Below are positions 19,372 to 51,515 of a stretch of DNA of 64,000 nucleotides, piece by piece; position 1 is the stretch's first letter; every line of letters begins with the position of its first letter. The notes below the pieces were generated by a model. It saw only the letters and a list, made by a program, of their open reading frames with translations. It was not told where the DNA came from and did not search any database. The DNA comes from Blautia parvula (GTDB lineage: Bacteria > Bacillota > Clostridia > Lachnospirales > Lachnospiraceae). The DNA lies in the NCBI RefSeq assembly GCF_020215665.1, contig NZ_CP084061.1:4865001-4929000 (forward strand). Direction: 5' to 3'. Made by a program: the position numbers and the translations under genes.

Positions 19372-19965
19372 ATGACAAAGAAAGAAATGCTGGAACAGCT
19401 CTCAAAAGAAAAGAAAGGGATCCTGAGGACAGCAGATGCCCAGGTATTAGGGATCTCCAGGCCCTACTTTTTGGAATTTATCCAAAAGCACGGATATGAA
19501 AAGATGGCCCACGGCATCTATCTGTCCCCGGATGCTTGGGAGGATGGGATGTATATCCTGCAGTCTAGATGTCCGCATGTTGTTTTTTCCCACGAGTCTG
19601 CTCTATACCTTTTGGGGCTGACAGACCGGGAACCTATGCAGCATACGGTGACTGTAAAAAGCGGCTATAAAACGACAAATCTAAAGGAAGAGGGGGTGAT
19701 CGTCCACATCGTAAAAAAAGAAAGATATCCGATCGGCATCACAGAGATCGAGACGCCCATGGGCCACATGGTGCGTACTTATAACGCGGAGCGTTCGATC
19801 TGTGATATTCTGCGCAGCCGCAGTCAGGTGGAGATCCAGGACAGGCAGACCGCCCTGAAAGAGTATGCCCGCAGCCGGAAGAAGGATATCCCTCTGCTCC
19901 TGGAGTACGCAGAGGAGTTCAAAGTCGATAAGATCTTAAAGATATATCTGGAGGTGTTATTATAA
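19372..19965 (+). CDS. AbiEi-family antitoxin / transcriptional regulator
   Basis: 197 residues. The N-terminal winged helix (KKGILRTADAQVLGISRPYFLEFIQKHGYEKMAHGIYLSP) and the following domain (FSHESALYLLGLTDREP, HIVKKERYPIG) are typical of AbiEi, the antitoxin of the type IV AbiE toxin-antitoxin/abortive infection system; it represses its own operon. The ATG follows AAGGTGATG. The stop codon is directly followed by the GTG start of the toxin gene, so translation is coupled. It stands at the left edge of the ICE, where it could stabilise the element and protect against phage. Confidence 0.88.
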   Translation: MTKKEMLEQLSKEKKGILRTADAQVLGISRPYFLEFIQKHGYEKMAHGIYLSPDAWEDGMYILQSRCPHVVFSHESALYLLGLTDREPMQHTVTVKSGYKTTNLKEEGVIVHIVKKERYPIGITEIETPMGHMVRTYNAERSICDILRSRSQVEIQDRQTALKEYARSRKKDIPLLLEYAEEFKVDKILKIYLEVLL

Positions 19966-31168: not shown

Positions 31169-32998
31169 ATGAGAAAGGATAAGGGTCAGGGTGTGCTCCT
31201 TGCAGCCCTGGGGATACTGCCGGTGCTGTGGTTCTCACTCCTTGCGGCACCTCATCTTAAGGGCGGGCTGTCCGGGATCCTAGCGGGATTGACCACAGCA
31301 TTAGAGCATCCGGCCCAGATAAGATGGGTGGAACAGAGTCCGAAGACCGCGGTCTGTTTTCTGGGAGCCTATCTCATGGGCATTGGCATCTATCTGAGCA
31401 CCCGCCGGAACTACCGGAAAGGGGAGGAGCACGGCTCGGCCAGATGGGGGAGCGCCCGGGCCATGGACCGGCGATACGCGGACAGGCAGAAAGAGAAGAA
31501 CCGCATCATGACCCAGCACGTGTCCATCAGCTACAACAGCTATCGGCATAAACGCAACCTGCTGACCATGGTGGTGGGCGGGAGCGGTTCCGGAAAGACC
31601 CGGTATTACTGCCTGCCGAACCTGATGCAGGCCAACACCTCTTTTGTGGTGCTGGACCCCAAAGGGGAGAACACCAGGGCGACCGGGAACCTCATGAAAG
31701 CAAAAGGATATGAAATCCGGGTGCTGGACCTCATCAATATGGAGCGGTCACACTGCTATAACCCGTTTTGCTACCTGCGGACAGACCAGGATGTACAGCG
31801 GCTGGTCACAAACCTGTTCAAGGCCACCACACCCAAAGGGAGCCAGTCCAATGACCCCTTCTGGGACACTGCGGCCAGCATGCTCTTATCTGCCCTGATC
31901 TTTTATCTCTGGTATGAGGCACCGCCCCGGGAGCAGAACTTCCCCATGGTCATGGAGATGCTGCGGGCAGGGGAGGTGCGGGAGGATGATGACAGTTACC
32001 AGTCTCCTCTTGATGAGCTCTTTTCCAGGCTGGAGATGAAGGATCCGGAGCACATCGCAGTGAAATACTATAAGGACTACCATTCCGGTTCGGCCAAGAC
32101 CCTGAAATCCATCCAGATCACCCTGGCGGCCAGGCTGGAGAAGTTCAACATCCCAAGCGTTGCGGGGCTGACCGCCACGGATGAGCTGGACCTGCAGCTC
32201 TTAGGGGAGAAGAAGATGGTCTTATATGCCATCATCCCGGACAACGACACCTCCTACAATTTCCTCGTGAGCATCCTGTACACCCAGCTCTTCCAGCAGC
32301 TGTTCTACCGGGCGGACTACGTGTACGGGGGAAAGCTGAAGGTGCCGGTCCACTTTTTGATGGATGAGTTCTGCAACGTCTCCCTGCCGGATGACTATAC
32401 CAAGATACTGAGCGTCATGCGCTCCCGTGATGTGTCCGTCTCCATGCTGATCCAGAACGTGTCCGCTCTAAAGGCACTGTTTGAAAAAGACTGGGAGAGC
32501 GTCATCGGCTGCTGTGACGAATTTTTATACCTGGGGAGCAATGAGACGGCGGCCCATAAGCTCATCAGCGAGTCGTTTCTGGGGAAGCAGACCATCGACA
32601 TGAACACCTATGGGAAGTCCACCGGGCACTCCGGCAGCTACTCGACCAACTATCAGATCACAGGCAGGGAGCTGATGACGCAGGATGAGCTGCGGATGCT
32701 GGACAACCGGTATGCCCTTCTCTTTATCCGGGGGGAGCGCCCGGTCATGGACCTGAAATATGACATCCTGAAGCATCCAAACGTGGATCTTACCACAAAT
32801 GGGAAGGGAAAGCCGTACCGGCACGGGGAAGTGAAGAAAGCTTCGGCCAGCATCACCTTTGACGGCTGGCTCTTAGATACTACGGATCTTGATCTCTATG
32901 AGGAGGAGGCAGGGCAGTATGAACTTTTGAGTGAGGAGGAACTGGAACTTTTACTGGAGAAAACAGAGGAGGAGAAAGAACATGGACAAGAAGGATAG
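31169..32998 (+). CDS. VirD4/TraG-type coupling ATPase
   Basis: 609 residues. Two N-terminal membrane helices (about residues 8-30 and 65-85) are followed by the RecA-like ATPase. Walker A is VVGGSGSGKTRYY (G137-T144) and Walker B VHFLMDEFCNVSLP, with the TraG signature VVLDPKGENTRATGN between. It recruits the relaxase-DNA complex and pumps it into the channel. ATG 31169 sits behind GGAAAGAG. Length and motifs are normal for Firmicute ICE coupling proteins. Confidence 0.95.
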   Translation: MRKDKGQGVLLAALGILPVLWFSLLAAPHLKGGLSGILAGLTTALEHPAQIRWVEQSPKTAVCFLGAYLMGIGIYLSTRRNYRKGEEHGSARWGSARAMDRRYADRQKEKNRIMTQHVSISYNSYRHKRNLLTMVVGGSGSGKTRYYCLPNLMQANTSFVVLDPKGENTRATGNLMKAKGYEIRVLDLINMERSHCYNPFCYLRTDQDVQRLVTNLFKATTPKGSQSNDPFWDTAASMLLSALIFYLWYEAPPREQNFPMVMEMLRAGEVREDDDSYQSPLDELFSRLEMKDPEHIAVKYYKDYHSGSAKTLKSIQITLAARLEKFNIPSVAGLTATDELDLQLLGEKKMVLYAIIPDNDTSYNFLVSILYTQLFQQLFYRADYVYGGKLKVPVHFLMDEFCNVSLPDDYTKILSVMRSRDVSVSMLIQNVSALKALFEKDWESVIGCCDEFLYLGSNETAAHKLISESFLGKQTIDMNTYGKSTGHSGSYSTNYQITGRELMTQDELRMLDNRYALLFIRGERPVMDLKYDILKHPNVDLTTNGKGKPYRHGEVKKASASITFDGWLLDTTDLDLYEEEAGQYELLSEEELELLLEKTEEEKEHGQEG

Positions 32999-35218: not shown

Positions 35219-35593
35219 GTGGAAGTAAAGATCAATAAGGAGATACGGGAATACACAGAGAACATGTTTTTTGGACTGTCCATGCGGCAGTTCTTTTTTT
35301 CTGTCCTGGCCTGCGGGGCAGCGATCAGTCTATACTTTTTTGCAAAGCAGTATCTATCAGATGAAGCGGTGAGCTGGATCTGCATCCTGGGGGCTCTGCC
35401 CTTTGTGTTCTTAGGGTTCTTCCGATACAACGGGATGACAGCGGAACAGTTCCTCTGGGCCTTTATAAAGTCAGAACTTTTGACCCCCAAGATCCTGGTG
35501 TTCCGTTCCGAAAATCTATACTATGAAGCACTGAAGCCCATGCGGAAGGCAAAAGAAAAGGAGGAGAGGAAGAAACATGATCAAGACGCTTAG
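35219..35593 (+). CDS. PrgI-family conjugation membrane protein (VirB3-like)
   Basis: 124 residues, GTG start 35219 behind GGATAGGAG. It begins with the family pattern VKINKEIREYTENMFFGLSMRQFFFS, has two membrane helices (residues about 25-45 and 55-75), then FRYNGMTAEQFLWAFIKSELLTPK. PrgI and VirB3 sit with the VirB4 ATPase at the channel base. It overlaps the VirB4 gene by 17 bases, so translation is coupled. Confidence 0.88.
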   Translation: MEVKINKEIREYTENMFFGLSMRQFFFSVLACGAAISLYFFAKQYLSDEAVSWICILGALPFVFLGFFRYNGMTAEQFLWAFIKSELLTPKILVFRSENLYYEALKPMRKAKEKEERKKHDQDA

Positions 35594-37895
35594 GCAGGCA
35601 GTCCTGCAGGAAAAAGAGCGCTTCCGGATACCCCGGAGTGTCCAGCATCTGATACCCGCAGAACGGATCTGGCCGGATGGGATCTTCCTGTGCGGCAGGA
35701 AATACACTATGATGTACCGGTTCACGGATATCAACTATGCGGTGGCAGGAAAAGAGGATAAGAAGTCCATGTTCTTTGCCTGGTCGGATATCTTAAACTC
35801 CCTGGACTGCGGCGCCGCGGCGAAGCTCACGGTCTTTAACCGCAGGATAAACCATAAGGAGTTTGCTAAACGCATCCTGCTCCCCATGCGTGGGGACGCG
35901 CTGGATGGATACCGGGAGGAGATGAACCAGATCTTATCTGACAAGGTGCGGGGCGCAAATGGAGTCGTACAGGAAAAATATATCACTATCTCTGTCTGCC
36001 GGAAGGACATCCAGGAGGCACGGAACTATTTTGCCAGGACGGGCACAGACCTGGCGGGCAGGTTTGCACAGCTGGGATCCCAGTGCCTCCCTCTGGATGC
36101 GGCGGAGCGTCTCCGGATCTTGTATGATTTCTACCGGGCCGGGGAGAAGGAGGATTTTTCCTTTGATATGAGGACAGCCATGAAAAGAGGCCAGAGCTTC
36201 AAGGACTGCATCTGCCCGGAATCCTTTGAGCATGGGAGCGACTACTTCAAACTGGGCGCACGCTATGGAAGGGTGCTGTTTTTAAGGGACTATGCCAACT
36301 ATATCAAGGACGAGCTGATGAACAAGCTGTCAGAGGTGAGCAGGAACCTGATGATGAGCATGGACATCATCAGTGTGCCCACGGACGAGGCGGTGAAGGA
36401 GGTGGAGAACCGGCTCTTAGGGGTGGAGACCAATATCACCAACTGGCAGCGCAGGCAGAACGCCAGCAATAACTTTTCCGCCATCATCCCCTACGACATG
36501 GAGCTGCAGAGGAAGGAATCCAAGGATTTTTTGAACGACCTGACCGTCCGGGATCAGCGGATGTTCTTCGGGGTCCTGACCCTTGTGCTGACCGCCGATA
36601 CCAGGGAAGAGTTAGAAAGAGACACTGAGTCCATCCTGGCACTGGGCCGGACAAATATGTGCCAGTTCGCGATACTTCGGGAACAGCAGATAGAGGGGCT
36701 TAATACAGTGCTCCCTTACGGGATACGGAAGATCCACGCCCTGCGGACCCTGAACACAGAGAGCCTGGCTGTCTTCATGCCGTTCAATACCCAGGAGATC
36801 ATGCAGGAGCGGGGCCTTTACTGCGGTGTCAACCCCATGTCCCACAACCTGATCCTTTTGGACCGGGGGAAACTGATGAACCCTTCCTGCTTTATCCTGG
36901 GCGTACCGGGGAGCGGAAAGTCCTTCCGGGCAAAACTGTTCATCATCCTGGTGGTGCTGGCCACAACAAAAGACCAGATCCTCATCTATGACCCGGAAGG
37001 GGAGTATGAGGCCCTGGTAGAAGCACTTGGAGGCGTGAGCCTGCCCATCGCTGCGGGAAGCTCCGTGAATCTGAACGCCATGGACATGGTGGCAGGGTAC
37101 GGGGAAAAGAACCCGGTCATCGACAAATCCCAGTTCATCCTGTCTCTGTATGAAAGGATCAGCAAAGGTGAGCATGTGGGGCCCAGGGAAAAGAGCATCT
37201 TAGATCGCTGTGTGGAACAGGTATATAAGCAGAAGGAAAAATACGGCATCCTTCCGTCTCTGCCAGAGCTGCGCAAGATCCTGCTCCAGCAGCCGGAACA
37301 GCAGGCAAGGGACCTTGCCCTGATGCTGGAGCTGTTCACAGAAGGGTCTTTGAACATCTTTTCCCAGCCGACGAACATCAATCTGAAGAACCGCATCATC
37401 TCCTTCAATACCAGGGATATGGGGGAAGAATTGAAAGAACTGGGCCAGCTGGTCATCACGGACCATATGATCAACCGGGTGACCGTCAACTGGGAGCAGG
37501 GCATCCGGACCCACATCTTCCTGGACGAGTTCCACACCCTCCTGCAGCAGGAGTACAGCGCGAATTTCTTCGACAGTGCTTACAGGCGGTTCCGGAAGCG
37601 TGATGCCTGGCTGACCAGTATGACCCAGAACGTGGAATATATCCTGGACTCTGTAAAGACCAGGACCATGCTGTCAAACTCAGAGTTCATCGTCATGTTC
37701 AACCAGTCCGAACCGGACAGGAAGGAACTGGCAAAGCTTTTGCATATCTCAGAACAGCAGCTGGCTTTTGTGACGAACGCACAGGCCGGGAACGGCCTTC
37801 TGCGGGTAGGGCATTCCCTGATCCCGTTCGTGAGTGACTTCCCAAAGGACAGCAGCCTGTATGGACTGATGAGCACAAGCCCAAGGGAGGACTAA
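35577..37895 (+). CDS. VirB4/TrbE-type conjugation ATPase
   Basis: 772 residues. Walker A LGVPGSGKSFRAKL with K448 is typical of VirB4/ConE, followed by LIYDPEGEYEALVE and, further on, Walker B HIFLDEFHTLLQ, and TQNVEYIL near the C terminus. The N-terminal 400 residues form the channel-binding domain. It powers assembly and substrate transfer of the type IV secretion channel. The ATG follows AAGGAGGAGAGGAAG. The sequence appears complete. Confidence 0.95.
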   Translation: MIKTLRQAVLQEKERFRIPRSVQHLIPAERIWPDGIFLCGRKYTMMYRFTDINYAVAGKEDKKSMFFAWSDILNSLDCGAAAKLTVFNRRINHKEFAKRILLPMRGDALDGYREEMNQILSDKVRGANGVVQEKYITISVCRKDIQEARNYFARTGTDLAGRFAQLGSQCLPLDAAERLRILYDFYRAGEKEDFSFDMRTAMKRGQSFKDCICPESFEHGSDYFKLGARYGRVLFLRDYANYIKDELMNKLSEVSRNLMMSMDIISVPTDEAVKEVENRLLGVETNITNWQRRQNASNNFSAIIPYDMELQRKESKDFLNDLTVRDQRMFFGVLTLVLTADTREELERDTESILALGRTNMCQFAILREQQIEGLNTVLPYGIRKIHALRTLNTESLAVFMPFNTQEIMQERGLYCGVNPMSHNLILLDRGKLMNPSCFILGVPGSGKSFRAKLFIILVVLATTKDQILIYDPEGEYEALVEALGGVSLPIAAGSSVNLNAMDMVAGYGEKNPVIDKSQFILSLYERISKGEHVGPREKSILDRCVEQVYKQKEKYGILPSLPELRKILLQQPEQQARDLALMLELFTEGSLNIFSQPTNINLKNRIISFNTRDMGEELKELGQLVITDHMINRVTVNWEQGIRTHIFLDEFHTLLQQEYSANFFDSAYRRFRKRDAWLTSMTQNVEYILDSVKTRTMLSNSEFIVMFNQSEPDRKELAKLLHISEQQLAFVTNAQAGNGLLRVGHSLIPFVSDFPKDSSLYGLMSTSPRED

Positions 37896-38799: not shown

Positions 38800-39207
38800 A
38801 TGGAAAAGATACGATTTGCAAGCAGGGAGCATGAGGCATTTTATGAGCAGATGCTTAAGAGATGCGGGAACCGGGATTGTTATCATCAGGCATTTTTTTA
38901 TTGCCTGGGGATCGCAGCAGAGACAAGAGAGAATGTGGAGTCCCTGTTTGATCTTGACGAGGACTGCATCCGGTTTGAAGGCATGGAACAGGGATGGCAG
39001 ACCAGCGGGAGCCGGCGCCTCTGCCGTCTGGCTTATAATCTCTGGAACGGGTATATAGAGGAAGGAGCGGAGCGTATGTCAACACCTTATGGGCTGTTTG
39101 ACTGCAGCTATTCTCCTTATTTTATGGAGGCTGTCCGTATCCGGTATCCAGAATATTTCCGGGGAGACAGGACTTTGGCAGAGCTGCGGGAGAAACAGGG
39201 ACGATAG
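38800..39207 (+). CDS. DUF6075-like protein
   Basis: 135 residues. It starts MEKIRFASREHEAFYEQM, then CYHQAFFYCLGIAAETRENVESLFD, typical of the DUF6075 family on conjugative elements. It is helical with several aromatic residues (SYSPYFMEAVRIRYPEYF near the end) and no membrane segment. Ribosome site AAAGGAGG. No biochemical function known. Confidence 0.72.
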   Translation: MEKIRFASREHEAFYEQMLKRCGNRDCYHQAFFYCLGIAAETRENVESLFDLDEDCIRFEGMEQGWQTSGSRRLCRLAYNLWNGYIEEGAERMSTPYGLFDCSYSPYFMEAVRIRYPEYFRGDRTLAELREKQGR

Positions 39208-39223
39208 AGAGAAGGAGAGGAGC

Positions 39224-40724
39224 ATGGCGGATATAAGGACCAGAGAAAAAGTAAAGGATGTCCGGACCATCGACCGCCTGCAGGCAGCCACCCATCATGC
39301 AAAAGAGGGGTATGTACGCACAAAAGAACAGATGGCGGAGGAGGTCTCCGGCAGGGAATCCTCCCCTTCGGGATATGCCACGGATCAAATGGAAAGGGAA
39401 GTGGAAAGAGGTACGGAAACCGCTGTCCGAGAAGGAGCCAGAAGGGGCATGGCGGCCGTTTCTCTGACCTGGAAAAAAGTCCGGGATATGAAGGAGAGAA
39501 GGGAGGAGAAAACGGATACCAGTACGGATGGGACAGATGAAAAAAATAATGAATTTTTACCAAAGGAAACAGGGACAGATGCTTCTTCGGATATACCATT
39601 TGAAAGAGAGCAGGCAGGATGGGAGAGGTCGAGCCCAGCTAGGAGTAGCGGACATGACGAACAGGGGTCGGATACAGATCTCAGACAGAGGCAGTCAGCA
39701 GGACGTAACAGGATACAGGAAAGGACGGAGTCCGCCCGAAAGATCAGACAGTGGGATGAAGCGGAGGGAACAAAAGGCTGGAACAAAGGAGATGAGACCG
39801 GTCTCCTGCTTGATCAGGACGCAGAGACCGGAAAAGAGGGAAGGGAAAAGATCCTTTTTGGAAAAACAGGGGATGGAAAGAATGGATACAGAGACAGCAG
39901 GCTGTCAGGTATGAGGGAAGAGTCGTCCCTAAAACGGCAGGATGTCGTTGCCAAAAGGGACAGCTGGGTCCGTACAAAGGAACAGACGGGAAGAGATATC
40001 AAGGAACCTGCCCATGCGGCGGGGAACTGGAACCGGCCTTCCTTTAAACATATCTGGGGAGGCGGCAGGACAGTGAAGACGGGCGAGATCAGGGAAGGCA
40101 TCCAGGCATCAGCCTGGGCGCTGCCGGACCATGCCGCTTTCAGGCAGAAGGCCTGGGCCGTGCAGTCCTATCAGGCTGCCGTCCGGAAGGGGGTACAGAC
40201 AGCAGGAAAAAATACCCTTACCATCTCAAAGGGCATAGCTGCTGGGCTTCGGAAGACTGCGGCATCAGCCAAGGCGCTGGCAGAAGGAACAAAGGCCCTG
40301 GGCGGCCTGCTGTGGCCTGCCTGTAGTACCGCTGTCCTTATCATTCTGTTCATTGCTCTGTTCGGAGGCTTTTTTCTGACATCTGCAGGAAATGACCCGG
40401 AGGGGAATGGACAGACCGTAAGTCAGGAGATCATCGCCTACACACCTGTCATCACACAATATGCCCGGCAGTACGGCATCCCCCAGTTCGTCACAGCCAT
40501 ACAGGCCATGATGATGCAGGAGAGCGGCGGACAGGGGACAGACCCCATGCAGAGTTCCGAGTGTCCCTTTAACACACGATTCCCGAATTCCCCGGGAGCC
40601 ATCACAGAGCCGGAATATTCCATCCAGGTGGGCATCCAGTATTTTGCTTCCTGCCTGCAGGAGGCTGCCTGTGAGAGTCCTATGGACATGGACCGGCTGA
40701 GCCTGGCGTGGCAGGGCTATAACT
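39224..40724 (+). CDS. Cell-wall hydrolase (lysozyme/CHAP), exon 1, split by a group II intron
   Basis: First part of a conjugative peptidoglycan hydrolase of the Tn916 Orf14/CwlT type. ATG 39224 follows GGAGAGG. Residues 1-350 are charged and disordered, followed by a membrane helix (about 365-385, VLIILFIALFGGFFLTSA) and the lysozyme-like domain: YARQYGIPQFVTAIQAMMMQESGG with the catalytic-type Glu. The frame runs to ...AWQGYN and a first base of Tyr, where the intron begins (GTGTG at 40725). Without splicing it ends after a few intron codons at 40741. Joined to 45255-45853 it gives 699 residues. Confidence 0.9.
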
Positions 40725-41508
40725 GTGTGAAACGTTCCTAGCTGAAAAGGCTAGGCAGACAGCAAGTGCTGTTTAGAACTATTACTTTGAGAAATCAAAT
40801 GAGTGGGTAACGCCACAAAGGGTTTCCTCTAATACTCCGACATGCGGGAAAAGTTGATATTAACATGAACCGTATGAAGCTCGGTGAAGTCGGTTGAAAG
40901 TGACCGTAAAGCATTATCAAATGCTACGAAATCTGCTCAGAGGTGGGCGGTGTCACCCATAGACCGGGAGTCTATAAAATACTCATGGATAGAATGGGTT
41001 CGCAAAACTATTGGCGAGACGAACCTGACGAATCTCCGAATGTACGGGTCTATAACCCTAATGCACAGAAATGTGTATGCCACGTGCGTGGTGTCAGTGC
41101 GGACGAGTAAGATTAGTTGTTATGAAAATCCGTTTATTGTTAAAGGCAGTAACAAGCTGACAGGCTCAAAGGAGAATCCTAAAAGTATATGTAAAGATAA
41201 AAGTAATGGAACGTTGGAAGCTGCCAACATGGAGAAAATATCTTCTATGAAGTGGTTGAAAGGAAATCTTTTGTGAAAATAGCAGAAGTATAACTTTATT
41301 TATGGCAGTGAAAGCGGTGACATGGTACTGATGAAGCGTCTAACAAACGTGGAGGGACGGTCACTAGTCTATGAAAGATGTATCATTCATTCTTCTTAGT
41401 AAGTTGTTAGAATAAGGTTCTGGTGAGACTAAAAAGGGCAAACCTCAATTAAGGAGGAGCCAACTTATTAAAAAGACAAACAAACTAAGGTACGCTGAGT
41501 ATTATGAT

Positions 41509-42325
41509 ATGCAGTCTAAATTAGACCAATTATATATGCAAAGCAAGAATGGAAATAACTTTTATAAGCTGACAAAGCTTATGGAAAGTGAAGAAAATAT
41601 CCGATTAGCCTATCGGAATATAAAGAAGAACATGGGCAGTCATACTGCTGGTGTTGATGGAAAAACAATAGCTGACATCGAAGATTTGACAGTTGAGGAA
41701 GTTGTAACAAAAATACGGGAAATGTTCAAATGGTATGAACCTGAAAAAGTCCGAAGAGTGTATATCCCTAAACCTGATGGACGGAAACGACCGTTAGGCA
41801 TTCCCGCTATATGGGACAGGTTATTCCAACAATGTATTCTTCAGATTTTAGAACCTATATGTGAAGCAAAATTTCATCCACACAGTTACGGATTCCGACC
41901 AAACAGAAGTGCTCATCATGCAATAGCAAGAGCAAATCATTTTATGAATAATAAAGGGAACGGATACCATTATTGTGTTGATATGGACATTAAAGGATTT
42001 TTTGATAATGTAAATCATGGAAAATTGCTAAAACAAATGTGGACAATGGGAATACGAGAAAAGAAACTGCTTTCCATAATTTCCACTTTATTAAAAGCAG
42101 AAATTATCGGAGAGGGTAAGCCGATAAAAGGAACACCGCAAGGCGGTATATTAAGTCCGTTATTGGCAAATATTGTGTTGAATGAACTTGACTGGTGGAT
42201 TAGCAATCAGTGGGAAACAATCAAAACTATAAGAGAATATACAACACATAAGGGTGCAAGAAGAGCCTTGATGAGACAAAGGAAGAATCTAAAACATTGC
42301 TATATGGTTCGTTATGCCGATGATT
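41509..42325 (+). CDS. ltrA: Outer-intron reverse transcriptase/maturase, N-terminal part, broken after YADD
   Basis: The frame contains RT motifs (RRVYIPKPDGRKRPLGIPAI, FHPHSYGFRPNRSAHHAI, MDIKGFFDNVNH, GTPQGGILSPLLANIVLNEL) and stops just after YMVRYADD, where inner-intron sequence GTGCG begins at 42326; unspliced it would end ...DDCAPRRR and stop at 42357. ATG 41509 has no ribosome site. Fourteen in-frame codons upstream, ATT 41467 follows AAGGAGGAG and gives IKKTNKLRYAEYYDMQSKL, which looks like a normal N terminus, so an ATT start is possible. Joined to 44194-45152 the protein has 591 residues (605 from ATT). Confidence 0.86.
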
Positions 42326-44193
42326 GTGCGCCACGAAGGCGAGTCCAAGTAGCGTAGCTACTTGAAGACAGCTATGCTGTACAGATGATGGCGGAGGGCC
42401 CGCCGGAACCGCTATACAGGTGGAGGTTCCAAACCACCCTAAGGTGCTGTAGTCAAAAGCTATGGTATTGAGCGTTAGGGAAAAGGCAGATATAACTGTC
42501 AGGTGGGTGTGAAGGAGATGAATGAACATATAAACCGCTTACGGAAATGTCGAAAGCGTAGAGATTCCATCAAAACCAGGGGGTAGTCGTTAACCTGGGA
42601 TAAGCCTGGAGGAAACCTGTTTACTGTCCAGGCGGTGGGCGGCATAAAGGCGGCATGAACTTTACACAGGCATCTGTACGGAACGTGGGAACCCACGGGC
42701 TGATGTTAAGGGAGTATATCAAGCGGAAGAACCGTAAGATAAGAGTACCGATGCAGTCATGGGGGCAGATTGGGTTATAGTAGCGTGGAAGTTTCTGTAA
42801 CGGGAATGGAGCAAAGAACCCGAATTATCCGGCTTTAAGGATAAGTCAACTTTAGAAAGAAGGAGGAACTTATGCAAGAAGCAAAGCCATACAGTATTTC
42901 AAAGAAAGCAGTGATAGCGGCTTATCAAAGAGTGAAAGCGAACAAGGGAACCTATGGTGTGGACGAACAGTCCATAGAAGATTTTGAGAGGAAACTCAAT
43001 AACAACCTCTACAAAATATGGAACAGGATGTCATCCGGCACTTATTTTCCCAAACCTGTAAAAGCGGTAGCGATACCAAAGAAGAATGGAGGAACCAGAA
43101 TTTTGGGGGTTCCGACAGTAGAGGACAGAATTGCCCAGATGGTGGCGAAGCTGTACTTTGAACCATGCGTGGAGCCAATCTTTTATGAAGATTCCTATGG
43201 ATACCGTCCGAACAAGTCAGCCATACAGGCGCTTGAAGCCACAAGGACAAGATGTTGGAGAAAAGACTGGGTATTGGAGTTTGATATCCGGGGGCTGTTT
43301 GATAACATCAGACATGATTATCTCATGGAAATGGTAAAGAAACATACCAAAGAGAAATGGATAATCCTATATATCCAGAGATGGCTGACGGCACCGTTCC
43401 AAATGGAAGACGGGACGATTGTGGAAAGGAAATCCGGAACCCCGCAAGGCGGGGTGATAAGCCCAGTATTGGCGAACCTGTTCCTGCACTATGTGTTCGA
43501 TGATTTCATGGTAAAGGAATTTCCGACGATACCGTGGGCAAGATATGCTGATGATGGGATAGCGCACTGCGTCTCCCAGAAACAGGCGAAATACCTGCGG
43601 AGAAGGTTGGAACAGAGGTTCCAGAGTTATGGTTTGGAACTGAACCAGGAGAAGACAAGGATAGTGTACTGCAAAGACGATGACCGGAGAGGGAATCATG
43701 AGAATACTTCCTTTGATTTTCTGGGATACACATTCCGTCCAAGAGATGCAAAGAACAGGTACGGGAAGTTCTTTACAAACTTCCTTCCGGCAATCAGTGA
43801 GAAAGCAAAGAAAGCCATACGCAAAGAGGTAAGAGGATGGAAACTGCAATTAAAATCGGACAAAGACCTCTACGATATAGCAAACATGTTCAACCGTCAG
43901 ATACAGGGATGGATTAATTACTACACGCATTTCTATAAATCAGAAATATATGATGTGCTGAGGTACATCAATGGATGTCTGGTGAAATGGGTGCGGAGGA
44001 AGTATAAGAAGCGCAAGGCTAGACGAAAGGCGGAACACTGGCTCGGAGAGATAGCAAAGCGTGACAGGAACCTGTTTGCACACTGGAAATTTGGGATACT
44101 GCCAGCGGCTGGATGATGGGAGCCGTATGAGCTGAGAGGTTCACGTACGGTTCTGAGAGAGACTTGAGGGGAGGTTCCTCAGGTCTACTTACT
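42326..44193 (+). mobile_element. Inner group II intron nested in the outer intron's RT gene
   Basis: 1868 bases. It begins GTGCG. Domain V is at 44120-44153 (34 nt, with the AGC triad at 44121-44123 and arms CCGTATGA / TCACGTACGG). Domain VI has arms AGACTTGAGG / CCTCAGGTCT and a candidate branch-point A at 44187. The end at 44193 is set by reading frame: it joins GATGATT to TTAAAATC, giving YADDFKI and an intact 592-codon frame. The AY end rule would put the end at 44192, so the boundary is uncertain by a base. Candidate EBS1 AGTCAT 42755-42760 pairs with the exon end ATGATT, using one G-U pair. Confidence 0.87.
42872..44116 (+). CDS. ltrA: Inner-intron reverse transcriptase/maturase, intact
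   Basis: 414 residues, ATG behind AAGGAGG. RT motifs are complete: VKANKGTYGVDEQSIEDF, IPKKNGGTRILGVPTVEDR, DSYGYRPNKSAIQAL, FDIRGLFDNIRHD, GTPQGGVISPVLANLFLHYV, and the catalytic ARYADDGIAH. A maturase (domain X) region follows: NRQIQGWINYYTHFYKSE. There is no C-terminal HNH endonuclease, unlike the outer protein. It should splice the inner intron and drive retrohoming. It differs clearly from the outer RT, so the inner intron is not a copy of the outer one. Confidence 0.94.
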   Translation: MQEAKPYSISKKAVIAAYQRVKANKGTYGVDEQSIEDFERKLNNNLYKIWNRMSSGTYFPKPVKAVAIPKKNGGTRILGVPTVEDRIAQMVAKLYFEPCVEPIFYEDSYGYRPNKSAIQALEATRTRCWRKDWVLEFDIRGLFDNIRHDYLMEMVKKHTKEKWIILYIQRWLTAPFQMEDGTIVERKSGTPQGGVISPVLANLFLHYVFDDFMVKEFPTIPWARYADDGIAHCVSQKQAKYLRRRLEQRFQSYGLELNQEKTRIVYCKDDDRRGNHENTSFDFLGYTFRPRDAKNRYGKFFTNFLPAISEKAKKAIRKEVRGWKLQLKSDKDLYDIANMFNRQIQGWINYYTHFYKSEIYDVLRYINGCLVKWVRRKYKKRKARRKAEHWLGEIAKRDRNLFAHWKFGILPAAG

Positions 44194-45152
44194 TTAAAAT
44201 CTTCTGTCGAGATTATCCGAGTGCATTGAGATTGTATCATGCTACGCAAGATTTTATTGAAAGAAGATTGAAATTGGAAATCAGTCCCGAAAAATCAAAA
44301 ATAGTCAATCTTAGAAAACAGCGAAGTGAATTTCTGGGTTTTACTATGTATGTAAGACCAAAAAGAAATGGTTATGTGGCTTATAGTCACATGAGTGACA
44401 AGGCAATCAGACATGCACATGATAAACTAAAACAATCTATTAAAAGGATTGCAAAGGAACAATCACGTGACGCAGTGTGGAAATATAATACGGTAGTAAT
44501 GGGAATCCATAATTACTATGAAGTAGCCACGCACGTAAACAGAGATTTAGCCCATATGAGTCAACACCTTACAAAATCTTTATACAACAGGCTGAGAAGA
44601 GATTGGAGACCAGCGAGTAAAGCAGATTTATCCATAACACTTTTAAAACGTTATGGCAGGTATAATCCAAAATGGTATAAAGCTCACGATATGATTATCA
44701 TTCCTATATACACATGGAAACACAGGTATGCGATACAATTCAATCAAAATATCTGTCCATATACAAAAGAAGGAAGAGCCTTGATACACAATAATCTAAA
44801 AGCGGTGAGCAGGGAAGTTCTTATACACATACAGAGATATTATTGTGATTATCGTTCTATTGAATATAACGATAATCGTATCTCAAAATTTATTTCTCAA
44901 TATGGAAAATGTGCAATCAGTGGCGAAGAATTAACGTTGAGGGATTGGGAGTGTCATCATAAAGTTCCCTTGAAATATGGTGGAACAGACAAATATAACA
45001 ATCTTATTATTATGATACTACCATTTCATAAAGCAATTCATAAAAGGGATAGAAAAGAACTTGACAATCTAATGGAGAAGTATCAGTTATCAGAACAAAA
45101 AAGGAAGTTATGTATAGAATTACATGAACTGGCTAATCAATCAGAAAAATAG
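44194..45152 (+). CDS. ltrA: Outer-intron RT/maturase, C-terminal part with HNH endonuclease
   Basis: The continuation after the inner intron starts FKIFCRDYPSALRLYHATQDFIERRLKLEI, directly following YADD in normal group II RTs. It then has the GFTMYVRPKR stretch, the maturase X region (VVMGIHNYYEVATHVNRDLA), and an HNH module CAISGEELTLRDWECHHKVP with CHHK and later HKAIHK. The nuclease would cut the second strand during retrohoming. No independent ribosome site or start is seen at the beginning, so this part is made only from inner-spliced RNA. Confidence 0.88.
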
Positions 45153-45254
45153 ATACATTGGAGTAGATGGCACGCCGTATGAGGTGAAAGTCTCATGTAC
45201 GGTGTAGAGTGGGGGAAAATTCGGAGATAATATCAAAGAATTACCTATCACTAT

Positions 45255-45853
45255 ACGGAAATGGGTATATCACCTGGGCTGTCAGTAACTTTGGCGGCTA
45301 CAGCGAAGCCAATGCCCTGGTGTTTTCCCAGCAACAGGCCGCATCCCACGGCTGGTCCGGATATGGGGACCCGCAGTACGTGCCGCATGTGATGCGCTAT
45401 TACCAGTACCGTGGAGGCGGCATGGCAGAGGGCGGCCTGCTGGTACAGGTGGCCAAAAGTCAGCTGGGGAACCAGGGCGGGCAGCCTTACTGGAGCTGGT
45501 ATGGATTTGAGAGCCGCCAGCCATGGTGCGCCTGCTTTGTCAGCTGGTGCGCGGACCAGTGTGGGTATCTGGAGGCAGGGCTTGTCCCTAAGTTCTCTGC
45601 CTGCGAGGAAGGGATCCGGTGGTTCACAGAGAGGGGACAGTATCATCCGCGTGACCATGTACCGGAACCCGGGGACCTGGTGTTCTTTGACTGGGGAAGT
45701 GATGGCAGCTACGACCATGTGGGGATCGTGGAATATGTGGAGGCGGGGATGGTGCACACCATTGAAGGGAACACAAGCGACAGCTGTGCAGAGCGTTCGT
45801 ATCCCCTTGGAGACAGCCGTATCTGCGGTTTCGGAAGTGTGGGGCAGCTATAA
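45255..45853 (+). CDS. Cell-wall hydrolase (lysozyme/CHAP), exon 2
   Basis: Continuation of the split gene. The first two bases complete Tyr, then GNGYITWAVSNFGGYSEANA ends the lysozyme-like domain. The C-terminal CHAP domain (NlpC/P60-like amidase/endopeptidase) has the catalytic Cys in QPWCACFVSWCADQCGY and the His in YDHVGIVEYVEAG, then HTIEGNTSD. Joined length is 699 residues, normal for these bifunctional hydrolases. It opens peptidoglycan for the mating channel. Only after outer-intron splicing is a full enzyme predicted; alone this part has no start with a ribosome site. Confidence 0.88.
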
Positions 45854-46024: not shown

Positions 46025-46714
46025 ATGAAGAAAAATATGATCAAAGGCAGCATCGCAGTATTGGGACTTACCGCAGTTTTGACCACAGGAGGACTGATAG
46101 CTTACTTTACCGACACAGATGCACAGACCAATACATTTACGGTAGGGAAGATCGAGGTGGATCTGACAGAACCGGAGTGGGACAAGTATCCGGATACCGA
46201 TAAGGATGGGATCCCAGACCCGGCTGAGGACATGACACCAAATAAAACGATCAAGAAAGACCCTACGATCACCAACACAGGTGTCAATGACCAGTTTGTC
46301 TTTGCGACAGTCCAGGTGCCGTGTAAGAACATCATCGCGGTGGACCCGGACGGGACCAGAAAACCGGCGGCACTGACTGATCTGTATTCCTACACCACCA
46401 ATCCGGGCTGGGTGAAGCTCGGGACTTATGAAGTGAGGGATGGCTCCGGGGTGACAGCCCATAAATACTTATATACCTTTGCGGAGAATAATACGTGCAC
46501 TGCCCTGGAAGCAGAGAAATCCACAAACCCCATCTTCTCAAAGATCACATCAGTCAATGCGGTAGAGGGACAAGGACTGGAAGAGCAGCAGTTTGAGATG
46601 CCCATCGAAGTCTTTGCCATCCAGACCAGTGACCTGAACGGAGGGAAGACCTCACCGGCGGATGTATGGAAGGTCTACAGCAATCAGAACAGCATCACGG
46701 AACAGTTCAATTGA
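46025..46714 (+). CDS. SipW-dependent exported surface protein (TasA/camelysin-like)
   Basis: 229 residues. The SipW-type leader is clear: KKNMIKGSIAVLGLTAVLTT then GGLIAYFTDTDAQTNTFTVG, where the ITAYFTDTxxxxNxFTxG pattern marks cleavage by SipW-type peptidases. The mature part has beta-sandwich signs (IEVDLTEPEWD, DPTITNTGVNDQFVFATVQVP). Such proteins form matrix fibres or surface structures. A hairpin follows the gene at 46731-46753, which could let this gene be expressed more than its neighbours. It is first in a group of four related secretion genes. Confidence 0.85.
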   Translation: MKKNMIKGSIAVLGLTAVLTTGGLIAYFTDTDAQTNTFTVGKIEVDLTEPEWDKYPDTDKDGIPDPAEDMTPNKTIKKDPTITNTGVNDQFVFATVQVPCKNIIAVDPDGTRKPAALTDLYSYTTNPGWVKLGTYEVRDGSGVTAHKYLYTFAENNTCTALEAEKSTNPIFSKITSVNAVEGQGLEEQQFEMPIEVFAIQTSDLNGGKTSPADVWKVYSNQNSITEQFN

Positions 46715-46730
46715 GTACCTATGAAAGCGC

Positions 46731-46753
46731 ACAGGCCCCTGCACGGGGCCTGT
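46731..46753 (+). promoter_or_regulatory. Intercistronic hairpin between two SipW-type genes
   Basis: ACAGGCCCC and GGGGCCTGT pair perfectly (9 bp) around a five-base loop, with no T run after it. It may stabilise the upstream mRNA or reduce read-through. Confidence 0.5.
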
Positions 46754-46775
46754 CCTATAGAAAGGGGGATGCAGG

Positions 46776-47294
46776 ATGGAAAAGAAAAAGCTCGCAGTCC
46801 TTTTGGCAGTCCTTTTACTGGCAGGGGCAGCCGCCAGTGCCGGGATCTATGCGTACCTGTCTGCAGAGGACAGCCGGGTGAACCGTCTTACGTTTGGCCA
46901 GAACGTTATAGAGACAGAGGAAGAGTTTCCAACACCGGACCCGAAACCGGGGGACAGCATTGAAAAGAAAGTGAGAGTGAAGAACACGGGGGATGTCCCC
47001 TGTTTTGTCCGGACACAGATCCTGTTCTCAAACGGGGACGCAGAAGGCATATCCACCCTGGAGCTTAACGAAGCGGATTGGACAGAGAGACAGGAGGATG
47101 GGTATCACTACTATAAACACATCCTCCCTGTCGGGAAAAGCAGTGCCGACTTACTGACGGCGGTGAAGATCGCGGACAGTGCCCAGCTGGAAGAGCTGAA
47201 GGACTTTCAGATCATCGTGTACTCAGAATCCGTGCAGTCCGAAGGGTATGAGGAAGGGCAGTTCAGGGAAGCCTTTGAGAGCCTGACGCATTAG
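46776..47294 (+). CDS. Second SipW-dependent exported protein
   Basis: 172 residues from ATG 46776, behind AAAGGGGG. The leader is KKKLAVLLAVLLLAGAAASA with GIYAYLSAEDSRVNRLTFGQN, the shorter SipW pattern (xYLSxEDxxxNxLTxG). The mature domain contains VKNTGDVPCFVRTQI. No transmembrane anchor at the end. Likely a minor subunit or partner of the 46025 product. Leader cleavage is predicted by the peptidase encoded at 48503. Confidence 0.82.
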   Translation: MEKKKLAVLLAVLLLAGAAASAGIYAYLSAEDSRVNRLTFGQNVIETEEEFPTPDPKPGDSIEKKVRVKNTGDVPCFVRTQILFSNGDAEGISTLELNEADWTERQEDGYHYYKHILPVGKSSADLLTAVKIADSAQLEELKDFQIIVYSESVQSEGYEEGQFREAFESLTH

Positions 47295-47315
47295 GAAGTT
47301 TGGGAGGGATAGAAG

Positions 47316-48503
47316 ATGAAACGTAAGAAACTGGGGATCGCGCTGGGCGTCCTTTTGTGTGCCATAGCAGGCGCAGGCGGGATCTGGGCGTTTGCAGCTG
47401 CAGAGACATCTGTTACCAACAGACTGTCCACCTCCGTGGTGGATATCAAACTGGAGACTTATAAGGAAACGGGAGAAAGAGAGGTGCCCTTTACGGAAAA
47501 AGACCGGAATATCCAGATGATGCCCGGCATGGTCCTCTCTCAGATACCAAAGATCACCAACAAGGCCATTGACTGCTATGTCCGGGCCGGGATCGCCATA
47601 GAAGGAAAAAGAGAAGTGGAGCGGCCCTTATCCCTGGAGGATATCTCCGGCTTTTCAAAAGATTGGGTCAGGCATGGGGAATATTACTATTATACAAAGG
47701 TCCTGAAGCATGGGGAGGAGGCCAGCCTTTTCCGTACCATCACCATACCAAAAGAGTGGGATACCCAGTATGACGCGGACGGGGTGGCGGATTATTATAC
47801 CCTGAATGACTGGGATATCACCATAAAGGTGGATGCTGTCCAGGCAGCGAACTTCACGCCGGATCTTGGGAAAGAGGACCCATGGGGGACAGAGGGGGAG
47901 GACTATGTCATCCAGGAATGTATCCATGAGGATGGATATGAGCTCACCGCCTATCAAAAACGGGAACCGCTGGAACTTACAGTCGTATATGAGGGGGAGA
48001 GCAGAAAACTGATCGCCAGTCCGGAGGATTTCTTTTCCAGCCTGCCAAAGCTTGTGCCCGGTGACGAGAAAGAAGGAGTCTTCAGCATGAAGAACAAGGG
48101 GGAAAAGAAGCAGGACTTCTATTTCAGGACCGAGATCCTGGAGGAAAAGGACATCCTGGAAAAGATCCGGCTGAAGATCGACACTGGAGGAGAGACGATC
48201 TATGAGGGCCCCTTGAACGCAGAAAAACTGAACGGATACAGCAAGCTGTGTAGCCTGGAAAAAGGAGAGAGCCAGGATGTGGCCTTTCGGATCACAGTGC
48301 CGAAGGAGCTGGATAACCGCTATACTCTCAATGACTGTAAAGTGAAGTGGATGTTCAAGACGGCAGAAGAGCCGGAACATGCGGTGCCGGTGAAGACAGG
48401 GGATACCCTCTGGCAGGATGCCGTGCCGTATATCCTGGCGCTGGCCGGGGCGGGTGGTCTTGTCATTGCCGTCATCAGGAAGAAGAGGAGAAAGAAGTGT
48501 TAA
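47316..48503 (+). CDS. Third SipW-dependent exported protein, C-terminal membrane anchor
   Basis: 395 residues. Leader RKKLGIALGVLLCAIAGAGG then IWAFAAAETSVTNRLSTSVV, the SipW pattern. The middle consists of two beta-rich domains (AGIAIEGKREVERPLSLED, and LVPGDEKEGVFSMKNKGEKK). It ends VPVKTGD, then a hydrophobic helix (YILALAGAGGLVIAVI) and RKKRRKKC, a layout like a cell-wall sorting signal (xPxKTG in place of LPxTG). No sortase gene is in the window. Probably the base or tip anchor of the surface structure. Its stop overlaps the peptidase ATG. Confidence 0.8.
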   Translation: MKRKKLGIALGVLLCAIAGAGGIWAFAAAETSVTNRLSTSVVDIKLETYKETGEREVPFTEKDRNIQMMPGMVLSQIPKITNKAIDCYVRAGIAIEGKREVERPLSLEDISGFSKDWVRHGEYYYYTKVLKHGEEASLFRTITIPKEWDTQYDADGVADYYTLNDWDITIKVDAVQAANFTPDLGKEDPWGTEGEDYVIQECIHEDGYELTAYQKREPLELTVVYEGESRKLIASPEDFFSSLPKLVPGDEKEGVFSMKNKGEKKQDFYFRTEILEEKDILEKIRLKIDTGGETIYEGPLNAEKLNGYSKLCSLEKGESQDVAFRITVPKELDNRYTLNDCKVKWMFKTAEEPEHAVPVKTGDTLWQDAVPYILALAGAGGLVIAVIRKKRRKKC

Positions 48504-49006
48504 TGAATGCATTACGAGTGGCAGGAAAGAGTCTGGAACACCTGACAGCAGGGCTCCTGGTCCTGGCAGTCCTGCTCTTCTGGATGCCCCGTCTGTTCCA
48601 GATAACCCCATATACCGTCCTGAGCGGGAGCATGGAACCGGTCATCCGGACCGGGAGCCTGTGCTATATTGACCGGGCAGCTGTGTTTGATGAGGTGGAG
48701 GATGGGGATATCATCGCATTTGCACGTATGGACGGGAGCTGTGTGCTGCATCGGGCCATCCGGACAGAGGCAGGGAAGCTCCGGACAAAGGGGGATGCAA
48801 ACGGGGCAGAGGACCTGGCGGCTGTGAGCAGGGGAAATTTCCTGGGAAAGGAAGTCTGCTCCATTCCATATCTGGGATATGTGACCGTGTTCCTGCAGAA
48901 AAAGGAAGGGAAGGCGGCGGCAATGATGGCAGCGGCCGTTTTTTTTCTGGCAGGTCTGTTTGGGCAGGTCTGCCGAAAGGAGGGAAAAGAGTATGAAAAG
49001 ACTTAG
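48503..49006 (+). CDS. sipW: SipW-type signal peptidase I
   Basis: 167 residues from ATG 48503, overlapping the preceding stop (TAATG). The Ser nucleophile motif VLSGSMEPVIRTGSL is present, then DGDIIAF and CVLHRAI, where the His marks the ER/SipW type (S26B) rather than the Lys of ordinary bacterial peptidases. Membrane helices flank the domain (about residues 12-35 and 138-160). It cleaves leaders of the three upstream proteins. Gene order with its substrates mirrors tapA-sipW-tasA of Bacillus, though the substrates are different. Confidence 0.9.
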   Translation: MNALRVAGKSLEHLTAGLLVLAVLLFWMPRLFQITPYTVLSGSMEPVIRTGSLCYIDRAAVFDEVEDGDIIAFARMDGSCVLHRAIRTEAGKLRTKGDANGAEDLAAVSRGNFLGKEVCSIPYLGYVTVFLQKKEGKAAAMMAAAVFFLAGLFGQVCRKEGKEYEKT

Positions 49007-51515
49007 GAGGGTGCTGATCGTTCTATGCTTATGCCTGTCTGTCACGGTTTCAGGCCTGCCGGTATCTGCCATGGAGAAAACCGGTAACGAACCTGCAGAT
49101 ACTGCAGCTGAGGAAGAAAAAACGGGGACAGATGAGGCAGAAAAGAAAGAAGAGACAGAGGGTGACGACAAAAGGACAGAAGTACCGGATACAGACACGG
49201 AGGAGCCTTCAGAAACAGAAGAGACAGAAGGAAAAGGACAGAAAGAGAGACAGGAAGAAAATACGGAACAGACGAAAGAAGAGCAGACTGTCCAGGGAAC
49301 GCCGGAAGAGGAGCTGGGTGAAACCGGTCCGGAGGAAAAAAGCCGGGAGGAGAAAGAAACAGAGAAAAAAGCTGTACTGGAACAGATCGCCGGTCCGGAG
49401 GGAGCCTGCTTTGCGATCCAGTCAGACCTTGGCAGGTACCAGAGGTCCGTGGATAACGGGAGCAGCCAGCAGGTCAACAGTGTACGGTATGATAAGTTCT
49501 ATACGGATGTAGGCCTGGGAACCTCTTATGATCCGCAGCTCGCCATGGGGATCAAGTATATCGACCATGATAATGAGACACCGGACGCGGACGGGAAATG
49601 GCGCTATGTCTACTGCCTGAACTTCAATAAGTCCAGTCCTACCGGCCAGCACATGACTTATCAGGGGGGATGGACCAGCAGAAAGATCGCCTACTGCCTG
49701 TACTATGGAGCCATGTTCTGGGAACAGCCCTGCCGGTATCCGAAGTACAGGACAGGGGACTGGCAGTTAGATTATTTTGTCACCCAGGTAGCGGTCCATG
49801 TGCTGAACGGGGAATTTACTCTGTCCAGTGCCTTTGGGCAGATCGATGACGCGGCAGGCGCTACTGCAGACGAAAAGGCGCTGGCAAAGGACAGGATCAA
49901 TCTATTGGTGAATGATGCGAATGACGGAGGAAACTATGCAAGCTTTACCGGGGATGGCTGGTTTGATGCCAGTGCACAGGCGGCATTTCGTGTCACCACA
50001 CCGTCTGACTTTGCGGCTGTGACGGATGGCTATGCGACCGGATATTCCACACCAACCTTTAAGACGGCTTATGACCTGGACATGAAAGAACAGATTACCG
50101 GTTTCAATGTGACAACGACAAACGGGGTGAACGTACAGAAAAAGGATACGAAGACGTATTCGGATTTCCGGTTGTTCATTAAAACTGCACAGTACAAGTC
50201 CTGGCAGCTGACCGGCAAGACCGTGAGCACTACAGTAAAAGCAACGGCACCCAAGTGGTGGGGCGGAGGCATCTACACAGCACCATCGGGCAGTGAATAC
50301 CAGGACTGTGTCCTCTGGACGTATACCACCGCAGGGGGGAGCTTCACAAAGACAGCATCCTTTGACAAAAAGGTACCGAAGAAGACATTTACCCTGAACA
50401 TCCAGAAAAAGGACGCAGAGACCGGGGCGGGCCTTACGGGGGCAGTTTTTTCCTTGTGGGCTTATGACGGAAGCGTTTATAGCAAGAAGCTGGGGATATT
50501 CACAGATAAAGGCGGCGGAAAATATTCCTATACAGGGATCGACTATACGAAGACAAAGGACGGGTGGTTCCTGGTCAAAGAGGATAAGCCGCCAAAGGAT
50601 TATCACCCGGAATATGTCATCTACAACAATGCAGACAAGGAGAACTATGTAAAACATGGAGGACGGGAAGTGAAGCTGACTGTAGATGGATTTGAGTGGG
50701 ACGGAGTCCCGGATGGAGCCATATTCAAAGATACCCCAGTGACCCCGAAGGCAGATATCGTGGTCAAGAAAACGGACGCGGATACAGGAGAGATCCTGGA
50801 AGGGGCAGAGTTCCAGGTGCGGGAATGGGATAAGACCGTAAAGGCCTATAAGAAAACAGCGTACCGAACCTTAAAATATGACGCAGCCGCCAAACGGTAT
50901 GTCACGGAAAAACCGGTCGAACGGACTGACAGCAATGAGGGAAAATTTAAAGTCATAGAAACAAAGCTGCCCGAGGGTTATCAGTGTCCCTGGGAAAAGG
51001 AGATCGAGATCACGGAGAAAGGAACCGTGACTTTGAACCTGGAGGCAGTCAATCATCCGGAGAGAACATTGACCATCCATAAGAAAATCCAGGTGGATGA
51101 GATCACCTGGGCACATGGAAACCCGACTTTTCTTTTCTCAGTGAATGGGGTGGATATAGAGGGAAAAGAGCATTCTTATCACCGGGTAGTAGAATTTACG
51201 GAAGATTATGTGAGAGAGCATCAGACAGGCGGGTATGTGACACTGAGTACAACGATAACCGGTATCCCAGCTGGGGAGTACAAGATCATGGAAGATACCC
51301 CAGTCATGCGTTATGTCCTTACAGATGCTGTGGCAGGAAGTGAAAATGTATCTGTCGTGAAAAAAGATGTGGAAATGATCAATGGGTTCATGAAGATCCA
51401 AGCAGATGTATCAGCGGATCTAAGGCCTGCAGATGGAAACGTGACCTTTGAGAATCACAAAACACACTTTGATAAGGTGTCTCATAACAGTACGGTGATC
51501 AATGTGATCAAATAA
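48993..51515 (+). CDS. Large surface adhesin with thioester and SpaA/Cna-B-type domains
   Basis: 840 residues from ATG 48993 (GGAGGG upstream), overlapping the peptidase end by 14 bases. A signal peptide (residues 1-28) is followed by a Glu/Thr-rich stalk to about 130. The next domain holds YVYCLNF (C208) and YFVTQVAVH (Q265), the Cys and Gln of an internal thioester (TQxA domain). Two Cna-B/SpaA-like modules follow, starting LNIQKKDAETGAGLTGAVFS and IVVKKTDADTGEILEGAEFQ, with likely Lys-Asn/Glu isopeptide chemistry. It ends VINVIK without LPxTG or a membrane helix, so anchoring is unclear. Such adhesins bind host proteins covalently. Confidence 0.86.
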   Translation: MKRLRRVLIVLCLCLSVTVSGLPVSAMEKTGNEPADTAAEEEKTGTDEAEKKEETEGDDKRTEVPDTDTEEPSETEETEGKGQKERQEENTEQTKEEQTVQGTPEEELGETGPEEKSREEKETEKKAVLEQIAGPEGACFAIQSDLGRYQRSVDNGSSQQVNSVRYDKFYTDVGLGTSYDPQLAMGIKYIDHDNETPDADGKWRYVYCLNFNKSSPTGQHMTYQGGWTSRKIAYCLYYGAMFWEQPCRYPKYRTGDWQLDYFVTQVAVHVLNGEFTLSSAFGQIDDAAGATADEKALAKDRINLLVNDANDGGNYASFTGDGWFDASAQAAFRVTTPSDFAAVTDGYATGYSTPTFKTAYDLDMKEQITGFNVTTTNGVNVQKKDTKTYSDFRLFIKTAQYKSWQLTGKTVSTTVKATAPKWWGGGIYTAPSGSEYQDCVLWTYTTAGGSFTKTASFDKKVPKKTFTLNIQKKDAETGAGLTGAVFSLWAYDGSVYSKKLGIFTDKGGGKYSYTGIDYTKTKDGWFLVKEDKPPKDYHPEYVIYNNADKENYVKHGGREVKLTVDGFEWDGVPDGAIFKDTPVTPKADIVVKKTDADTGEILEGAEFQVREWDKTVKAYKKTAYRTLKYDAAAKRYVTEKPVERTDSNEGKFKVIETKLPEGYQCPWEKEIEITEKGTVTLNLEAVNHPERTLTIHKKIQVDEITWAHGNPTFLFSVNGVDIEGKEHSYHRVVEFTEDYVREHQTGGYVTLSTTITGIPAGEYKIMEDTPVMRYVLTDAVAGSENVSVVKKDVEMINGFMKIQADVSADLRPADGNVTFENHKTHFDKVSHNSTVINVIK

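Follow-up and report, generated by a model that had tools for sequence, protein, structure and literature searches.

A nested group II intron of Blautia parvula and its relatives recur at the YADD active-site codons of reverse-transcriptase genes

When one group II intron lies inside another, is its position a matter of chance or a target? This question is raised by a stretch of 64,000 nucleotides from Blautia parvula (the window; G000:C1:4865001-4929000 of a 6.25-Mb single-contig genome), in which a conjugative wall-hydrolase gene is interrupted by an outer group II intron (40725-45254; plus strand, as are all parts of both introns, their host gene and the conjugation genes named below) and the reverse transcriptase (RT) gene of that intron is interrupted in turn by an inner one (42326-44193). 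An earlier, sequence-only reading had described the nesting. Our main result, which that reading had not seen, is that relatives of the inner intron are repeatedly inserted at the same point, the active-site codons of RT genes. We consider it very likely that the inner intron is one of a widespread family of class D-like introns without endonuclease, which homes to these codons and inserts in RT genes that other group II introns carry.

Both layers, as that reading had claimed, carry the domains of group II introns. Rfam covariance models were applied at gathering thresholds. The outer intron matched RF02004 for domains D1-D4 (40774-40978, 171 bits) and RF00029 for D5/D6 (45170-45254, 57.3 bits), and the inner one RF01999 for D1-D4 (42390-42504, 113.5 bits) and RF00029 (44118-44193, 56.7 bits). 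All four matches, which answer the covariance-model check that the reading had asked for, exceeded the gathering score, and the D5/D6 matches lie where it had placed domain V hairpins (near 45172 and 44120). The 5' ends were likewise read as it had given them, GTGTG for the outer intron and GTGCG for the inner. The group II consensus ends are GTGYG at the 5' side and AY at the 3' side; the outer intron ends in AT, and the inner in CT when its 5' end is set at GTGCG. The outer RT gene is left in an N-terminal piece up to its YADD motif (41509-42325) and a C-terminal piece holding the RT end and the maturase (44194-45152), with an HNH match under the Pfam cut-off.

The window genome itself holds a natural empty site for the inner intron. 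A second copy of the outer intron (locus L001, G000:C1:194000-204000; copy at L001:4275-6936, C1:198274-200935, 2662 bp), with both ends in agreement, aligned at 100% identity as two abutting pieces of 1601 and 1062 bases with one base shared, the 1868 bases of the inner intron being missing. Its RT is open, and its 591 amino acids plus stop agree with the 592 codons calculated earlier for the window RT once the inner intron is removed. The locus is thus a twintron: an intron lies within an intron, and a form without the inner one exists. For the outer layer, nine uninterrupted hydrolase homologs (L085-L093) were found, in which the N- and C-terminal pieces of the window, translated apart and never joined, lay exactly one codon apart in 9/9 (L091 aligned just 51 residues of the C-terminal piece). 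Because empty sites are seen for the inner (L001) and the outer intron (the nine homologs), both layers are precise insertions. The hydrolase frame that had been postulated across the outer intron stands in its continuity and not in its length: by coordinate arithmetic it runs to 744 codons plus stop from the first ATG at 39089, as against the 700 proposed, for which a later start was presumably used. Since the outer copies are indistinguishable, whatever separated the two would be recent; among 200 genomes of the family, outer RT relatives reached at most 52% identity, the window genome's own copies aside.

The inner intron encodes an RT/maturase of 414 amino acids (42872-44116) with RVT_1 and GIIM domains, and no HNH endonuclease domain was detected in it at E up to 0.001. 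It is 58% identical to the RT of an intron on a Sinorhizobium meliloti plasmid. This identity, together with the absence of an endonuclease domain, suggests that the inner intron is class D-like (IIB3, RmInt1-like).

The recurrence of the insertion point was assessed in relatives of the inner RT. A pattern scan with this RT gave 59 loci in the genome collection and two in viral contigs. Ten of 303 plasmid records with a match were taken in, all among the 20 matches listed; one locus (L073) was added from 60 genomes of one family, that of the Methanosarcinaceae-titled bin with L040, and 14 matches in 11 genomes came from a phylum sample of 398 genomes. The main target sample comprises the 57 rows, that of the window among them, in which the 5' end was read. 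Of the 59 genome-collection loci, 34 were read at the 5' end and are among these 57, seven belong to a sister clade described below, and 18 had no readable 5' end (in eight of these the 3' exon is RT sequence from behind YADD, judged by eye). L072, L094, L095 and L102 were dropped as duplicates of places already counted; L009, L096 and L010/L002 stand outside the 57. A row was called as lying in an RT box when at least one flank showed homology at E < 1e-3 to a small RT panel of our own. On this basis 43 of the 57 relatives sit in the active-site box of an RT gene, 24 of them with RT homology in both flanks, and none of the other 14 had an RT-like flank by the same test. The box reads YADD in 36, FADD in four, LADD in one and YADA in one, with one cut at DD by a contig end. 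After removal of host-gene duplicates (three rows), 40 of 54 remain in an RT box. The window site itself, which we propose as the homing site (42313-42325, TATGCCGATGATT), consists of the codons Y-A-D-D and the first base of the next codon.

This recurrence bears on a rival explanation, in which an ordinary intron landed by chance in another intron's open reading frame (ORF) and the nesting acts, much as the sequence-only reading had predicted, as an ordered two-step switch for the conjugation hydrolase. The twintron layout stands, with two complete nested introns in one gene, and for Trichodesmium the accessible part of one account shows a twintron spliced step by step (PMC4649490). However, the same box is occupied in 43 of 57 relatives, and strict order is weakened because the genome holds, at another place, an identical outer intron whose RT is open and which could supply the maturase in trans. 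Two-step dependence of the window hydrolase is possible and not required. The outer ribozyme, moreover, need not be broken by the inner intron, as the latter lies in the ORF, which by analogy would place it in domain IV. We regard chance landing with a splicing switch as improbable.

RT-box relatives came from Bacillota, Pseudomonadota and two archaeal-family genomes. In nine of the ten plasmid loci (including Enterococcus, Vibrio, Sinorhizobium and Bradyrhizobium) the box stands directly before GTGYG, the exception being L081 of Neochlamydia, and a YADD box stands directly before GTGYG in both archaeal loci (L040 in the Methanosarcinaceae-titled bin, L073 in the same family). In the window genome the box-plus-intron pattern occurred once, and a reversed control never. 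Among ten host N-terminal pieces, tested also with PADLOC, a group II RT model scored best in nine and retron RT models in one. The latter host, common to the two viral contigs L070 and L071, is retron-like, with a best NCBIfam score of 110.9 bits under a cut-off of 235; in L071 its gene follows one for an NAD-dependent DNA ligase and precedes SLOG, GIY-YIG and Thg1-like genes. A target restricted to group II RTs was considered and given up, as this host, albeit below the model cut-off, speaks against it. In the chromosome of Pelosinus fermentans JBW45 five copies with identical RTs were found (L014-L018), four in RT boxes of three different RT genes (one of them hit twice) and the fifth at a TTTGCTGGCGACT site without an RT-like flank.

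Could the pattern descend instead from one old nested pair, copied vertically along with its host intron? Three pairs of rows do share a host (L015/L018, L070/L071 and L035/L059). The hosts otherwise differ, with best panel matches to the outer RT, to RTs of RF02001 introns and to class D-like RTs, besides the retron-like one, and the identical Pelosinus introns occupy three RT genes and a non-RT site, so that we hold such inheritance to be very improbable. An assembly or alignment artefact, which the many draft or metagenome contigs might suggest, is hardly credible when a single-contig window genome, a complete Pelosinus chromosome and nine of ten plasmid records show the pattern.

How might an intron recognise these codons? 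Alignment of the 5' parts brought out a hairpin loop AGTCGTT and a segment GGCATA or a close form, which we propose as exon-binding sites (EBS) 1 and 2, pairing with intron-binding sites (IBS) 1 and 2 of the exon. In the inner intron they lie at 42585-42591 (EBS1, pairing with GATGATT) and 42641-42646 (EBS2, pairing with TATGCC). A pattern for EBS1 matched 48 of the 57 rows, including 41 of the 43 in RT boxes; for EBS2 the numbers were 52 and 41. EBS1 is predicted to pair with exon positions -7 to -1 and EBS2 with -13 to -8; in the window all 13 bases of the site pair, and host sites gave a mean of 11.9/13 pairs (35 of 40 scorable). From -13 to -1, pairs were counted in 34, 30, 28, 35, 35, 17, 35, 35, 34, 35, 34, 35 and 30 of these 35 hosts. 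Pairing is weakest at the third base of the Ala codon, which is free, and both Asp third bases face a G, which can pair with C as well as T. EBS1 position 1 and the -1 base covary: T faces A in 4/5 cases, and A or G faces A in 2/33 (two of the 40 hosts have no readable EBS1). Four introns of one genome (G345; L101, L104, L105 and L106) with identical RTs have their EBS1 changed to AACCGTC and follow a matching GACGGTT exon (ACCAGGGGGACGGTT) without an RT-like flank; judged by these sequences they are natural retargeting. A placement that makes the inner intron one base longer on its 5' side, giving an AC end and an insertion exactly after the YADD codons, was rejected: the final T hardly changes, whereas the -1 base varies, and does so together with the first position of EBS1. 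Among the 127,976 13-mers of both window strands, two pair at 13/13, one being the real site, which stands alone at 13 on the plus strand above five 13-mers at 12, including the active-site box of the inner intron's own RT. By pairing alone, about two perfect sites would thus remain in 64 kb; what carries the case is the repeated insertion in RT genes rather than the score.

An intron that targets RT genes carries one itself. The own box of the inner RT (43544-43556, TATGCTGATGATG) makes 12 of 13 pairs with its own EBS2/EBS1, the last base being mismatched. Across the family the own box is mostly YADD followed by Gly, or by Ala in some relatives. The -1 base is G in 2/40 host boxes as against 34/35 readable own boxes, and at this last base, facing EBS1 position 1, pairs are formed in 5/33 own boxes and 30/35 hosts. 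It is predicted that the base after YADD, a G facing EBS1 position 1, lets the intron avoid its own gene.

Several observations weigh against these readings. The sample was built from relatives of a single query, the inner RT, and in several rows the source is a metagenome bin, for which the taxonomic label may be mistaken. The 14 rows elsewhere comprise nine near-matches by eye, four copies of one retargeted intron and one other; six of the nine near-matches were scorable, at 8 to 12 of 13 pairs, and at least 8 is reached by about 9% of window 13-mers. The second perfect 13-mer, on the minus strand, carries no known intron, and three more on that strand reach 12. The CT at the inner 3' end departs from the usual AY, and the Fisher test on the covariation of EBS1 with the -1 base (p 0.001) ignores relatedness, L036 and L039 being sisters. 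As to the own gene, its box averages 11.5/13 pairs against 11.9 in hosts, a gap that is the last base; five introns with T at EBS1 position 1 could wobble with the own G. The sparing is perhaps real, and it is not absolute, since two insertions (L075 and L083) have G at -1, one of them in a class D-like RT. YADD-Gly is also present in the sister clade, which has another target; it therefore did not arise as protection and looks like a useful accident.

This sister clade (52-54% identity, support 100/100 in the RT tree, eight rows) sits between D5-like and D6-like hairpins in 8/8 rows (L043, L044, L047-L051 and L008; six distinct sequences). L008 came from a separate scan, outside the 59 loci, and the hairpins were recognised by sequence and folding rather than by a covariance model, as the insert splits the model. 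In L044, L050 and L057 (ends unread in the last) the host's D1-D4, matched by RF02001, and its RT lie upstream; RF02001 we take to mark group IIC. Such an insertion would split the host ribozyme. The idea that all relatives share one target was dropped in view of this clade and of L009 and L103, which lie elsewhere. In the RT tree the YADD label stands on all deep branches sampled, with 11 changes against a shuffled mean of 19 (0/500 as low). These labels were fixed before the final count: L100 is labelled a near-match and was later counted as an RT box, L021 and L042 are YADD from the 3' exon alone, and L096 is 'other' without a read site. They fit an old YADD target with later changes, gains not being separable from losses. 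It seems to us rather probable, with less assurance than for the target itself, that a bacterial and archaeal lineage has specialised in parasitising other retroelements through the sequences they conserve most, one set reading the YADD codons of group II and retron-like RT genes and the sister clade the D5/D6 junction of further group II ribozymes, with the own RT mostly spared through one codon behind YADD.

Anatomy, site, conserved loops, ability to pair, recurrence and the natural empty site are direct observations, and from them the following activity may be predicted. The family's homing site would be the coding sequence TAY-GCN-GAY-GAY plus one base, EBS2 GGCATA pairing with the Y-A codons and EBS1 AGTCGTT with the D-D codons and the next base. 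G.U wobble would absorb the Asp third positions, so that the RNA could read the protein motif with little regard to which Asp codons a gene uses. Together with its RT, the excised inner intron would reverse-splice into the YADD codons of a further RT gene, with priming from the replication fork, as described for other endonuclease-less introns in the accessible part of the source (PMC4424553). Insertion in group II RT genes would yield twintrons, at least one insertion having gone to a retron-like RT gene, and splicing out of the host RT mRNA would restore the host RT. On S. meliloti plasmid pMl3 (L080:1963-5684) two relatives of the inner intron, 1861 bp each, lie head to tail without a mismatch behind one YADD box, which possibly reflects repeated homing at the same 5' exon.

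The gene that holds both introns belongs to a conjugative element, as the sequence-only reading had supposed, since it lies behind genes for a VirD4-like coupling protein of the CD1115 family (31169-32998) and a VirB4-like ATPase of the CD1110 family (35577-37895). Its 5' exon encodes the N-terminal piece of the wall hydrolase, with a Lysozyme_like domain (39089-40724, PF13702), and its 3' exon the C-terminal piece with CHAP (45255-45853, PF05257). The host of the second outer copy is a protein with EVTAPKGYN- and EQTAPEGYE-like motifs, SpaA-like by eye. Gly-Tyr-Asn codons (GGNTATAAC and one further base) precede each outer copy, and the genes so interrupted are two distinct ones for wall or surface proteins. 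Next to the hydrolase gene, on its downstream side, an apparent surface cargo (46025-51515) consists of SipW-dependent matrix-like proteins and a protein with a SpaA domain, and ahead of ParA/ParB-like and conjugation genes lies an AbiEi-like (weak match) and AbiEii toxin-antitoxin pair (19372-20865). In the subset of window ORFs scanned, no drug-resistance gene adjoins the hydrolase gene; two genes for generic MATE transporters (5085-6500 and 12656-14005) are found upstream, at over 25 kb from the introns, and a ComEC-like ORF (7218-8345) scored 112 bits with a beta-lactamase-like model, far below its cut-off of 590. The window also holds a NiCo riboswitch (16213-16307), closely followed by a gene for a cation diffusion facilitator (16329-17324), and two guaA-like ORFs (14052-15380 and 17457-19034), the first matching mainly the C-terminal part of GMP synthase.

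To our knowledge the YADD motif is near-universal in RTs; as it is not free to mutate either, the target should be hard to escape and is expected in many kinds of retroelement, retrons included. A recurrent sort of twintron would then follow one simple rule, guide loops complementary to a protein's active-site codons. Hyperparasitism among retroelements, and the discrimination between own and other genes, become directly testable; most relatives examined lie at this target in other RT genes and would then be parasites of parasites. The finding further suggests that introns interrupt some of the split RT genes now annotated as fragments. In the accessible parts of their descriptions, one annotation pipeline sets twintrons aside (PMC4028801) and another is unable to detect their outer introns (PMC8919778), which may be why the pattern is easily missed. 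A literature search found no paper in which the YADD codons are given as the target of an intron, most subscription papers and Dai & Zimmerly 2003 being outside its reach.

The inner intron can be set beside several known systems. The target of RmInt1 is an insertion sequence, whereas that of the inner intron would be RT genes. They are alike in an RT-maturase without endonuclease, as described for RmInt1 and class D (IIB3) introns in the accessible parts of PMC5894124 and PMC3552965. The outer layer resembles B.th.I1, which on the available text lies in a Tn916 ORF14-like gene of pAW63 (PMC1196294), a conjugative wall-hydrolase-like host, with a single layer unlike here. Bacterial twintrons are known (PMC2882425, PMC4649490 and PMC4424553, as far as their accessible text goes). 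That of Trichodesmium, a cyanobacterium, also sits inside a protein gene and is spliced in sequence, where splicing is predicted here, and the accessible account describes no RT-box target (PMC4649490). Closer are the Thermosynechococcus elongatus twintrons (Mohr 2010, PMC2882425), in which one intron family homes to a conserved site of another; in the accessible part of that account, however, this site is in domain IV, between the first and the second start codon, the inner introns have no ORF and one genome is concerned. Closest are the Methanosarcina introns, which, in the accessible parts of PMC1712230 and PMC4424553 (citing Dai & Zimmerly 2003, RNA 9:14-19), tend to insert in the RT genes of other group II introns; L040 and L073 lie in a YADD box. 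Dai & Zimmerly 2003 may already name the site for archaea; the accessible Methanosarcina accounts mention neither active-site codons nor recognition through EBS, and neither a spread among bacteria nor a retron-like host nor the D5/D6 clade.

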